64,000 nucleotides of DNA, from assembly GCA_001600055.1 (NCBI GenBank), contig BCIV01000016.1, forward strand, positions 1 to 64,000, read 5' to 3'. This document shows positions 455 through 10,034 of the stretch, in pieces; position 1 is the stretch's first letter; every line of letters begins with the position of its first letter. Made by a program: the position numbers and the translations under genes. This stretch comes from Filobasidium wieringae (lineage: Eukaryota; Basidiomycota; Tremellomycetes; Filobasidiales; Filobasidiaceae). The notes beneath the pieces were generated by a model that saw only the letters and a program-made list of their open reading frames with translations, did no database searches and was not told where the DNA came from.

Positions 455-2300
455 CTACGAGGACCCGTTTCCGTTTCCATTTCCTACGAGGGTTGTGCCA
501 CGAAGGCTGGACGTCAATCGTGATCAGATCCGTCCGTTGAGGATGATGGCTTACCATTGCCGTTGCCGTTTCCTACAGAGGGAAGTGAGGCAAGGAAATT
601 AGAAGTTGTTCACGACGGTTATACGTGCTGCCTTGGTGCGATTACTCACCATTGCCATTGCCGTTCCCTGTTGTGAGAGAGGGAGCATAGAGGCTCAAGT
701 CAGCTACGACCGTGTTTTTATGAACAGACGTCACTACAGACCATTTCCGTTACCGTTTCCTACGCCGGAGAAAGAAAGGTGATAAGCGACGCAAAGGCCC
801 TGTAAGGGGAAGATTGTGCGTACCGTTACCATTGCCATTACCATTACCGTTACCATTGCCATTACCGTTGCCGTTGCCTAAATGAACCGTCGACCGCCAT
901 GAGCGACGAAGACTCGAAACATGAACTCTGAGCCTACCGTTTCCGTTGCCGTTACCATTACCTATGAAGTCAACGAGGTAAATGAGCGAAGGAACAATGA
1001 CGAGGAAAACGTCCCGTCGTACCATTGCCATTTCCATTACCGTTGCCATTACCAGAGCCACCGTTCCCTAGAGACGCGATCGCAATTGAAGACCTTGGTC
1101 CGATAGATTCAGACTGTCATCGCTTATAGCTTACCGTTGCCATTCCCATTGCCTGCGAGATAGGTGGATCGTTAGGGATTCGTCGATTCAAATGGCTATA
1201 GGACGTGTCTCGATAGCTTACCATTACCGCTCCCCGAATTCCCATTTCCTGTTTCACAGATGATAGTGAACGGTGTGATGAGTAAGCGGTCTTCTGCCTG
1301 GCAGCGAGGTTACACAAGAGTCGCTGTAGCTTACCGTTCCCGTTCCCATTGCCTGTTACGAAGCGTTCTGTAAGCCAGGTGAGAGCCAAGAGGAGTTGTT
1401 CCAAGGGACTCACCGCTGCCCGAATTGCCGTTACCTGTCATCGAAATGGCTCATGAGCAAGACATCGTGATTTTACGCAACAAATCAGACGTACCGTTTC
1501 CGTTTCCGTTTCCTAAAATTTTGAGTAGTCGAATCAGTACGACTGACCTTGCTGAGAGGAAACTAATCTGGCTTACCGTAACCGCCTCCTCCTGCTGACG
1601 ATCCGTTACCATTACCATTGCCATTACCGTTACCACTCCCCGCATTCCCGTTCCCGTTGCCATTTCCGTTTCCACTCCCCACGTTCCCGTTGCCATTGCC
1701 ATTTCCGTTCCCGTTTCCACTTGACCCAGCTGAACCGTTTCCATTGCCATTGCCGTTTCCATTTCCTGTTCCCGGAGTCTTTTGCCCTGTAGGCGATTTC
1801 GAGCCGTTCGAGTTGCCATTACCTGAGCCATTACCGCTGCCCCAGTTGTTGTTCCCGTTCGAATTCCCATTCTTACTGCCGACATTATCGTTCCCGTTAG
1901 ATCCTCCGTTTGCGTTTCCCGTATTGCTATTCCCGTTTTTTGATCCGTTCTTCGAACCGTCATTGTAGTTGCCATTATCAGAACCGTTGGATGAGCCTAA
2001 GTTCTGGTTGCCATTCTTCGATCCATTTTGAGAACCCGTATTATAGTTGCCATTATACGAACCGTTCCAGCTTCCCGAGTTGGAGTTCCCGTTCTTGCTT
2101 CCGTTCTTGTCGGAGCTTGATCTGATGGGAGCCAACGGACGCTTAATCGAGATATCGTGGGACGAAGTCGAGCAGCAAAGATGGGTGACTCACTTGGCCA
2201 AAGCGTTCACCGAAGGATCACGAGCTGGAATCGGGCTAGCCCATGAGCTTATAGTAGATCCTGAGACTACTGCGGCGATCAGGAGTTTGGAGAATCTCAT
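455..2300 (-). CDS. Secreted Gly-Asn repeat protein with 12 tiny 3' exons
   Basis: Fourteen exons, 319 aa. Exons: 2194-2300, 1577-2121, 1495-1512, 1414-1434, 1335-1352, 1222-1248, 1135-1152, 1023-1067, 938-961, 824-877, 742-759, 650-667, 555-572, 455-483 (stop TAG 455-457). Exon 1 starts MRFSKLLIAAVVSG, a classical signal peptide ending near WASPIPARD. Exon 2 holds tandem 13-residue units of the form NGSxNGNxNxGSx and then GNGN runs. Every later exon is 18-54 nt, encodes Asn-Gly runs, and starts and ends in phase 1 by splitting a Gly codon. The introns are 60-86 nt and are not alike in sequence. All junctions stay in frame through to the stop. The function is unknown. Low complexity and the signal peptide suggest a cell-wall or extracellular protein. 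It shares its repeat with the gene at 5302-5916. Confidence 0.85.
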
Positions 2301-3343: not shown

Positions 3344-4096
3344 ATGATGCACGACCGACCAGGCAACGACAGACCCCACAGGACCAACTCTGAGCCCTCG
3401 CGGGGTTCTGCAAATCGAGTCCCTCCTCATCACGACCCATACGGCTATGGCCATCGTTGGGGTAACGAACATCAAGGATCCTGGCGTCACAACGGCCAAA
3501 ACAATGGTCAAGGCAATCGAGGCGCGCATAATGGCGAATCCAATGGCAGGGGTAATCGTGGTTCGTACACCGGGAATGGAAACGGAAACGGGAACGGAAA
3601 TGGGAACTGGGCAAAGGATGGCAATGCCCGAGATAGTAACCCACGCAACGATCACAATGAACAACCAGAAGGTCAGAGCGCTTGGTGGAAAACGCTATAC
3701 GCAGAACCCTGGGGGACAGCGAACGGACAGAATAACGGACAGAATAACACAGGCACTGAGAACGGTTTTGGAAATGGAATGGGGTACTCCAGTACGACTG
3801 GAACCGCCTCGCAGAATGGAGTTAGTACAACAGGTACAATGGTTGTTATGACCTCGGTTCGTTTCGCTATGTATACGACGGGGCTAAATCGTTTTTATCG
3901 CGATATAGCGTCACTCTTAGACACCTTCACGTCAATTTCCTCGACCTCTCAGTCCACTTCGACACTAGCATCTTCATCTACTAGTCTAGTCCCCTTGCCC
4001 AGTTCAACGATCAGTCTGGCAACACGGAGCACGACCCATTTGACGGGAGCAGTCTGGCTATTGTACATTCTGATGTTCATGATGATGTATCGGTAG
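3344..4096 (+). CDS. Gly-Asn/Ser-Thr-rich putative GPI-anchored surface protein
   Basis: The open frame runs from ATG 3344 to the stop at 4094-4096. The N-terminal half is hydrophilic and rich in Asn, Gly, His and Arg, with NGQNNGQ-type and GNGNGN runs. The C-terminal third is a Ser/Thr-rich stalk ending in a hydrophobic tail (GAVWLLYILMFMMMYR), the layout of a GPI-anchored fungal wall protein. The true 5' end is uncertain: the same frame is open and hydrophobic upstream of 3344 (LLLVVLLSG), so a spliced signal-peptide exon is likely. An intron of about 3834-3929 would remove a non-repetitive stretch and join the repeats to the stalk in frame. It resembles its two Gly-Asn-rich neighbours in composition but lacks their 13-residue unit. 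Function unknown. Confidence 0.6.
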   Translation: MMHDRPGNDRPHRTNSEPSRGSANRVPPHHDPYGYGHRWGNEHQGSWRHNGQNNGQGNRGAHNGESNGRGNRGSYTGNGNGNGNGNGNWAKDGNARDSNPRNDHNEQPEGQSAWWKTLYAEPWGTANGQNNGQNNTGTENGFGNGMGYSSTTGTASQNGVSTTGTMVVMTSVRFAMYTTGLNRFYRDIASLLDTFTSISSTSQSTSTLASSSTSLVPLPSSTISLATRSTTHLTGAVWLLYILMFMMMYR

Positions 4097-5301: not shown

Positions 5302-5916
5302 ATGAAGTTCTCCGCTATCGCCCTCGTCGCTATCCTCTCCACTCTCGCCTCCGGTGTCATCGCTGTCCCCGTCGCCGCGCCCGCCGATGGTCTTGTCGTG
5401 TAAGTCTCGAGCTGTAAAACCCCACAACAGCTTTCACTGACTTACGCTACATGATACAGCCGAACTGACGAATATGTCAAGCCAGCCGTTGGCAATGGAA
5501 ACGTCAATGGCAACCAGAATGTCGGCAACAAGAACGGAAACAAGAACGGTAACAACAACGCTGGTTCTTTAAACGGAAATGTCAACGGAAACCAGAACTC
5601 TGGTAACAAGAACGGCAACGTCAACGGAAACGATAATGCTGGATCGGCTAACGGAAACGTCAACGGAAACCAGAACTGGGGAAGCAAGAACGGTAACGTC
5701 AACGGAAACCAGAACTCAGGAAACTTGAATGGTAACGCCAATGGAAACCTGAACACCGGGAACAAGAACGGTAACGCCAATGGAAACCTGAACACCGGGA
5801 ACAAGAACGGTAACGCCAACGGAAACGATAACTACGGCTCCCTCAACGGTAATGCCAACGGAAACGATAACTGGGGTTCCGGAAACGGCAACGGTAACGG
5901 CAACAGCAACGTCTGA
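5302..5916 (+). CDS. Secreted 13-residue Gly-Asn tandem-repeat protein
   Basis: Two exons, 5302-5399 and 5460-5916, give 184 aa. The N-terminus MKFSAIALVAILSTLASG is a strong signal peptide, with a likely cleavage site near GVIAVPVAAP. After a short linker almost all of the mature protein is about ten tandem 13-residue units of the form NGNxNGNxNxG[SN]x, where the variable positions are V/A, Q/D/L and S/T/W/Y. The protein has no Cys and no enzymatic motif. The same unit occurs in the minus-strand gene at 455-2300, so the two are probably paralogues. The 5' leader is CT- and A-rich, typical of well-expressed fungal genes. A structural or matrix role is likely. Function is not known. Confidence 0.9.
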
Positions 5917-8993: not shown

Positions 8994-10034
8994 CTACAGA
9001 GTAACAACAACCTTCTTCGCCGAGACCCCCTTACGCTGTACCTCCATTGCTTCCTGAATCTTCCCCAGTCCATCCCCAACGAGCAAAGCTGTGGGTAAAG
9101 CTTTATACGATCCATCCTCGAGCGATTGCGGCAAGAATTCCCCATACAGCTTCTTGCTCTTGACGTCATCGTACCTCAAAGCAACCCCCTTGATAAAGTT
9201 GGTCTCCACGCCCGAGGGTAGTTCTTCCTTGTTCGGAAGGACGCAGGAGATAAAGAGTCTAGTACCGGGTGTAGTGGAGTCGATCAAGACCTGTGCGAGT
9301 TTAGGTGTTGATTGCGATTTGTTGGCACAGTCAAGAGCACCCACGATCGCTTGACCCGAAGTAGCGGCCTTCAGATCGTCCACGATTGAGTCGGATTTGT
9401 AATCGAAGACTTGAACTGCACCAAGAGCTTTGATTTGATCGAAGTTCGCAGGGGAGGCGGTAGCGTAGACCTTGTACCCTGAAGCGGTAGCTAACTGAAC
9501 GGCGTTGAGTCCCACCGAAGTCGCAGCTCCCCAAAGCAACAAAGCTCCTTTATCGACCGTGACCTTCTTCCCAGCCTGAGGCAGTTCGAGTTTAAGATCG
9601 TCCTCGTGATACAGTCCTACACTAGCCGTAGAGAATCCCAGAGGTACGACGACAGCGTCCTTGACAGAGAGGCCGTCGGGGATCTTACAGATTACGTTCT
9701 TGTGAACCAACGAATACTCCTGAAAAGCTCCTTCGCTAGCCCGTCCGGATCCTAAAGCGGTGCATTGTCCAATGACTCGATCTCCCTTTTCAAACCCCTT
9801 GACTCCATCTCCAACCTCGACGACCTCTCCAGCGACATCTTGACCGAGAATGAACGGGTAATTGAGAGGGAAGAACGCGTCGTACTGTAACATCCAGTCG
9901 ATAGGGTTGATAGCGATAGCTTTCACTCTGACGAGGATGAGATCGGGGTCAGGACTAGAGTAGGGAGCTGATTTGATTTCGAGTGGGTTGGCCTTCTCGG
10001 CGGTAATCCAGGCTGCTTTGTTTGTGGAGGACAT
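8994..10034 (-). CDS. Zinc-independent MDR oxidoreductase (quinone/enoyl reductase-like)
   Basis: Single exon, 346 aa. It is a medium-chain dehydrogenase/reductase with an N-terminal GroES-like domain (INPIDWMLQ, PFILGQDVAGEVVEVGDGV, KGDRVIG) and a Rossmann domain with LLWGAATSVGLNAVQLA, the AxxxVGxxAVQLA-type NAD(P)H loop. The structural-zinc cysteine cluster of classical alcohol dehydrogenases is absent, so it belongs with the quinone oxidoreductase / trans-enoyl reductase-like group. These enzymes reduce conjugated C=C or quinone substrates with NAD(P)H in the cytosol. It lies just outside the catabolic cluster and could supply a quinone or enoyl reduction, but nothing in the sequence ties it to that pathway. 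Confidence 0.9.
   Translation of the reverse strand: MSSTNKAAWITAEKANPLEIKSAPYSSPDPDLILVRVKAIAINPIDWMLQYDAFFPLNYPFILGQDVAGEVVEVGDGVKGFEKGDRVIGQCTALGSGRASEGAFQEYSLVHKNVICKIPDGLSVKDAVVVPLGFSTASVGLYHEDDLKLELPQAGKKVTVDKGALLLWGAATSVGLNAVQLATASGYKVYATASPANFDQIKALGAVQVFDYKSDSIVDDLKAATSGQAIVGALDCANKSQSTPKLAQVLIDSTTPGTRLFISCVLPNKEELPSGVETNFIKGVALRYDDVKSKKLYGEFLPQSLEDGSYKALPTALLVGDGLGKIQEAMEVQRKGVSAKKVVVTL

Follow-up and report, generated by a model that had tools for sequence, protein, structure and literature searches.

A Gly-Asn repeat gene of Filobasidium wieringae with a predicted array of small in-phase exons

We analyzed the first 64,000 nucleotides (nt) of contig BCIV01000016.1 (contig 16) in the assembly GCA_001600055.1 of the basidiomycete Filobasidium wieringae; this whole stretch is referred to here as the window. 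On its minus strand, near the contig end, lies a gene in which the last third of the coding sequence is divided among 11 small exons and a very short last exon with the stop. In our preferred reading, to which we assign a probability of about 0.72, the gene encodes a secreted low-complexity Asn-Gly repeat protein, and its small exons would be spliced mostly constitutively. Judged from the patterns described below, a real, translated micro-exon array is very probable.

Anatomy of the gene

Read on the minus strand from 2300 to 455, 14 exons join into a 960-nt frame that encodes 319 amino acids (aa) and a stop. A signal-peptide-like exon comes first, after which come a 545-nt Asn-Gly repeat exon, the 11 small internal exons and, with the stop, a last exon of 29 nt. 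The 13 introns measure 60 to 86 nt and all have the form GT..YAG. Each of the 11 internal small exons is bounded at both ends by a Gly codon split behind its first base, and thus starts at codon position 2; their lengths (18 to 54 nt) are multiples of three in 11 of 11 cases. An earlier reading of the letters and their translated open frames (the sequence-only reading) had listed exons of 18, 21, 18, 27, 18, 45, 24, 54, 18, 18, and 18 nt plus one of 29 nt, and these lengths proved exact on the minus strand from 1512 to 455, as did the claim that every internal exon is of phase 1-1 with a split Gly codon. Two of its details had to be amended. All 11 internal exons do encode Asn-Gly, but exons (E) 4, 6, and 8 carry Ser too. 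Likewise, the array does follow a repeat-rich main exon of 545 nt, but a second exon larger than most of those in the array, of 107 nt, stands ahead of that one. The features of the gene are as follows.

2194..2300, minus strand: E1, 107 nt, with ATG and a signal-peptide-like start (by inspection), ending in phase 2
2122..2193, minus strand: intron 1, 72 nt, donor GTGAGT
1577..2121, minus strand: E2, 545 nt, Asn-Gly-Ser repeat exon with a 39-nt period at 1615-1709
Within 484..1576, minus strand, alternating with the micro-exons: introns 2-13, of 64, 60, 61, 86, 69, 67, 61, 60, 64, 74, 77, and 71 nt, GT..YAG, +5 G in each
1495..1512, minus strand: E3, micro-exon, 18 nt
1414..1434, minus strand: E4, micro-exon, 21 nt (NGNSGSG)
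1335..1352, minus strand: E5, micro-exon, 18 nt
1222..1248, minus strand: E6, micro-exon, 27 nt, with a possible inner donor after 1228
1135..1152, minus strand: E7, micro-exon, 18 nt
1023..1067, minus strand: E8, small exon, 45 nt
938..961, minus strand: E9, micro-exon, 24 nt
824..877, minus strand: E10, small exon, 54 nt, with a possible inner donor after 848
742..759, minus strand: E11, micro-exon, 18 nt, followed by an unusual donor, GTCTGT
650..667, minus strand: E12, micro-exon, 18 nt
555..572, minus strand: E13, micro-exon, 18 nt
455..483, minus strand: E14, terminal exon, 29 nt, stop TAG

The stop codon of E14 lies within CCTCGTAG (455-490, minus strand), where eight bases are identical to the intron 13 acceptor. 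This stop codon may have descended from a copied acceptor, or the identity may be a coincidence.

The array compared with chance

We searched the 19.76-Mb assembly for the pattern AG-(GNAAYG)x3-GTNNG. All six matches fell in this gene, where they correspond to the six 18-nt exons, and a reversed-pattern control had no match in the assembly. A version with two units followed by GTRNG also had no match in the same assembly search. For scans of repeat runs and exon chains, the material was 264 kb on both strands, made up of the window and 20 stretches of 10 kb. Outside the locus, this material held seven runs of at least two GNAAYG units, none of which was preceded by AG and one of which was followed by GT. 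Inside the locus, AG preceded 10 of 14 such runs, and 9 of the 14 were flanked by both AG and GT. One of these nine (1765-1736) sits within E2 and was not counted as an exon.

The chain scan ignored exon content. Donor and acceptor profiles were trained on 138 candidate introns between long open frames, 88 of which have G at +5. A chain required a donor score of at least 4.4 bits (the score of the weakest donor of this gene), a YAG acceptor, introns of 55 to 90 nt, exons of 12 to 60 nt, and an open frame. At the locus, the scan recovered 12 consecutive in-phase exons; in the 42 other strand sequences (525.6 kb of strand), no chain exceeded 4. Because this chain includes one false exon in E2 and uses inner donors for E6 and E10, it contains 11 true acceptors. 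When whole introns were shuffled (500 times), the longest chain was 4, which was reached once. The two neighboring Asn-Gly-rich genes, paralogue B and gene C, each gave a chain of 1.

Coding evidence and the predicted product

The 102 codons past E2 vary in a way expected of translated sequence: the variation is synonymous, and the residues remain Gly, Asn, or Ser. Third positions of the Gly codons are C in 17 cases, T in 13, A in 12, and G in 8, and those of the Asn codons are C in 23 and T in 22. The 13-residue period of E2 is carried on over the exon junctions: the Gly-Ser blocks of E2 stand at residues 183 and 196, and those encoded by the micro-exons at residues 228, 241, and 254. Retention of an intron leads to an early stop for 11 of the 13 introns; retained intron 5 has no stop up to the end of the tested sequence, and retained intron 9 adds 20 residues in frame.

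The 319-residue product has no Cys. Its N terminus is hydrophobic and signal-peptide-like, as judged by eye from the translation, and by this inspection we infer that the product is secreted. Searches of Pfam-A at E values up to 1 returned no family for the product (a 317-aa query, two residues short), for paralogue B, or for gene C. Protein searches gave three weak repeat matches among 8,000 scored candidates for residues 1 to 160 of the product and 15 matches among 7,981 scored candidates for paralogue B. We considered the database matches, including those to Mesorhizobium and Ambispora proteins, as possible orthologues but read them instead as common low-complexity repeats.

Asn-Gly repeats with Gly-Ser blocks were also seen in metagenome, Mesorhizobium, and Ambispora proteins (P0001, P0004, P0005, and P0007). 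They perhaps represent a convergent low-complexity fold.

Splice signals

The donors of this gene are uniform at one position, with G at +5 in 13 of 13. The 12 array donors have A at +3 in 9 cases, versus 23 of the 88 reference donors with +5 G (P = 0.0015), and 5 of the 12 are GTAAGC, versus 3 of 88 (P = 0.0005). It had been suggested that the GGTAAY codon pair itself resembles a 5' splice site. The likeness in sequence stands, and the enrichment of A at +3 and of GTAAGC agrees with it. However, GGTAAY repeat codons place a pyrimidine at +5, where the real donors have G, and the in-exon GGTAAY sites (n = 16) score a mean of 3.9 bits versus 6.7 for the 13 real donors. On these donor sequences, the splice signal is best described as a departure from GGTAAY, i.e., as G at +5.

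Splicing mode

In the preferred reading, each intron of 60 to 86 nt would probably be recognized as a unit (intron definition), so that exon size would be nearly irrelevant. The G at donor +5 would set real donors apart from the numerous GGTAAY repeat codons. Spliced exons would then fuse in one phase to give (Gly-Asn)n, with the 13-aa repeat register restored; the common phase would follow from the fact that every array intron occupies the same place in the repeat lattice (G|GN). Intron retention would be the main expected splicing error. In a survey of 23 fungi, intron retention accounted for 61% of alternative events and exon skipping for 3%, and its authors favor intron definition in the passages cited (PMC3925392). 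The cited portion of a Cryptococcus review gives an average intron length of 65 nt, which the introns here approach, and describes mostly intron retention (PMC5851062). Because fungi rarely skip exons, the introns are of fungal size, and 18-nt exons should be hard to define across themselves, the splicing of the presumed transcript is expected to be mainly constitutive.

Several observations weigh against this reading. The best in-exon GGTAAY sites reach 4.4 bits, level with the weakest real donor (4.4), so inner donors may be used. Branch-site motifs are only weakly enriched: YTNAY occurs in 11 of 13 introns, versus 8.2 in shuffles (P = 0.08), and CTRAY occurs in 5, versus 2.2 (P = 0.052), while introns 1 and 7 have no branch-site motif in the stretch tested. 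Intron 11 has an unusual donor, GTCTGT. Furthermore, the 138 introns of the reference set are themselves candidates.

A first alternative holds that variability of splicing is the function of the array, with small exons included or skipped so that the secreted proteins vary in repeat length; the same has been claimed for the micro-exon genes (MEGs) of schistosomes. As the sequence-only reading had proposed, any subset of the internal exons can be skipped without a frameshift (2,048 of 2,048 subsets remain in frame). The product also looks secreted, and the inner donors in E6 and E10 lie above the scan threshold. However, the keeping of frame is explained by the shared position and phase of the introns, which would make the skippable design a by-product. 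Skipped exons are only 3% of fungal events in the survey cited above (PMC3925392), and short introns favor retention as the usual failure. We therefore regard functional variability as improbable.

It is less probable again, to the point of being hard to credit, that the gene stops after E2 and that the downstream runs are a noncoding relic. An unspliced reading of E2 does meet a stop, at 1563, after four codons. Against it, 12 acceptors and 12 donors stand in register, with G at +5 throughout, and both the synonymous codon variation and the 13-aa register continue past E2. A gene predictor could easily end at this false stop, and such genes may for that reason be missed elsewhere.

Origin of the introns

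The introns had been described as dissimilar, and in pairs they mostly are: 5 of 78 pairs reached P < 0.05, where chance alone would give about 4, and 1 of 78 did so when only the 5' parts were compared. Taken together, they nevertheless show slightly more similarity than samples of 72 introns from the reference set. For whole introns, none of 300 samples was as high; by part, the likeness was P = 0.037 for the interior, P = 0.017 for the last 20 nt, and P = 0.08 for the first 20 nt. The 18-nt exons had a mean match of 14.0 of 18 (from the sum over 15 pairs), versus 14.27 for shuffled codons. E4 and E6 share a Ser-coding block, E5 and E7 with their donors match well, and E4-E5 resembles E6-E7.

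Two histories are compatible with the preferred reading. The first is that exon-intron units were duplicated in tandem long ago and that their introns then drifted apart, which would be a late stage of the process described for Cryptococcus neoformans CNN00420 (PMC2395259). The identical intron position in every unit, the sharing of GTAAGC donors (5 of 12 versus 3 of 88), the resemblances within E4 to E7, and the slight excess likeness of the introns all point this way, and CNN00420 supplies a precedent. On the other side, the introns are unrelated in the pair tests, for whole introns as for 5' parts, and the mutual match of the 18-nt exons does not exceed that of codon shuffles. We find unit duplication plausible, at somewhat less than even odds. 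A recent tandem duplication was rejected, as there is no sign of one at the intron or synonymous level, though the introns show their slight excess likeness.

The second history is one of separate gains at a single lattice position of a Gly-Asn minisatellite, which would have acted as an intron nursery. Along a GGNAAY lattice, proto-splice sites would recur at six-base intervals, GGTAAY would be a near-donor that G at +5 turns into a real one, and 12 unrelated introns would have gathered at one identical position of this lattice. Consistent with this picture, the introns are mostly unrelated, array donors tend to share the +3 A of GGTAAY (9 of 12 versus 23 of 88), and paralogue B retains the repeat with no introns in it. 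The picture requires many gains in one gene, however, and the shared GTAAGC donors and slight intron likeness suggest some common descent. We put it forward as a tentative idea that is rather unlikely to hold. Intronization of the repeat DNA itself was also considered and rejected; in its plain form it is unlikely because the introns hold no remnant of the repeat.

Introner copying, in which one mobile intron family inserted repeatedly, would account for many introns at one type of site in one gene but is the least credible origin, since the introns are unrelated in pair tests and locus DNA matched only itself in the assembly (in a search that skipped simple repeats and very common words); on this point the sequence-only reading, which had argued against introners, was borne out.

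Comparison with known systems

The nearest precedent among the systems cited is intron gain by DNA repeat expansion in CNN00420. As described in the cited part of that report, the gene has 39-nt exonic repeats as well as 107-nt repeats that comprise exon ends and a whole intron; its introns 3, 4, and 5 were copied recently enough to be identical still, and intron number in this type of expansion differs among strains (PMC2395259). Its orthologue CNAG_06312 is named Osp1 in a passage of a later paper (PMC13274837). Both genes are fungal, with exonic repeats of about 39 nt (here, the 39-nt period in E2, whose register is kept over the junctions) and short GT-AG introns within the repeat. In contrast to the near-identical introns of CNN00420, those of the present gene are pairwise unrelated (5 of 78 at P < 0.05), and 12 of them lie in the repeat region.

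Other systems share features of the array. The MEGs of Schistosoma, as presented in the portion of the source cited, have very short exons in series, most of them with lengths divisible by three, introns of about 100 to almost 5,000 bp, an N-terminal signal peptide, and differential splicing (PMC10526429). The many short exons (multiples of three in 11 of 11 here) are alike, and the product here, with its hydrophobic start, may be secreted as well. The MEGs, however, are trematode genes with long introns and known isoforms, whereas the array described here has introns of 60 to 86 nt and isoforms that are hypothetical. Aphid bicycle genes resemble it in their many small internal exons that begin at codon position 2 (11 of 11 here) and their secreted-looking products, but the cited description gives them CYC motifs, whereas this product lacks Cys (PMC9168663). 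A 2024 paper on Xlr2 of Trichoderma virens states, in the passage cited, that functional microexons were previously undescribed in filamentous fungi (PMC11121469). Xlr2 likewise has a micro-exon in a fungus, but this is a single exon that serves as a regulated switch in a transcription factor rather than an array in a repeat protein (PMC11121469, as cited). Introner elements differ in being near-identical introns spread genome-wide, whereas the introns here are unrelated and the locus matches only itself (simple repeats skipped). Among the open-literature matches listed, we found no comparable fungal micro-exon or repeat-intron gene, or Asn-Gly repeat gene, beyond these systems.

The locus is an unusual natural case for intron origin inside repeats. 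It allows 12 comparisons of position, phase, and donor recruitment within one gene, an opportunity that cases of intron gain seldom offer. It would also serve to ask how short serially arranged exons can be and still be used by the fungal spliceosome, and whether interruption by unrelated introns stabilizes a repeat tract.

Genomic setting and neighboring genes

Two further Asn-Gly-rich open frames lie near the micro-exon gene, on the opposite strand.

5302..5916, plus strand: paralogue B, with a signal-peptide-like start, one phase-2 intron (5400-5459), and an unbroken 13-aa Asn-Gly repeat, without micro-exons
3344-4096, plus strand: gene C, also Asn-Gly-rich, an open frame between the micro-exon gene and paralogue B, with a hydrophobic C-terminal end

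Paralogue B is about 3 kb from the micro-exon gene, and its intron has the same phase (2) after the signal-like start. In a protein search of the assembly, the E2 peptide had at least three matches, of which paralogue B accounts for two and the micro-exon gene for one.

The start of contig 16 looks subtelomeric in its sequence. Bases 1-173 of the window match positions 69-240 of contig 11 with 167 identities, a short CCCCTAA run stands at the match end in both contigs, and the micro-exon gene ends about 280 bases from this run. A three-unit CCCCTAA run, however, had three matches in the assembly: contig 11 has one at its start, and contig 21 has two overlapping ones about 14.6 kb inside, which speaks against a simple subtelomeric reading. 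The shared 173-base stretch may be a subtelomeric repeat, or it may be the terminus of an element that resides in telomere repeats.

Elsewhere, one GT20 exon had its top score (388 bits) against PDB 8fhw, a Cryptococcus structure, with 370 bits for the runner-up; by this small margin it agrees with a basidiomycete source.

Farther into the window, 8994-10034 (minus strand) encodes a zinc-type oxidoreductase that is 95% identical to protein P0019, encoded on a 1,303-base metagenome contig from the Joint Genome Institute (JGI). Given this match, close relatives appear to be present in metagenomes.
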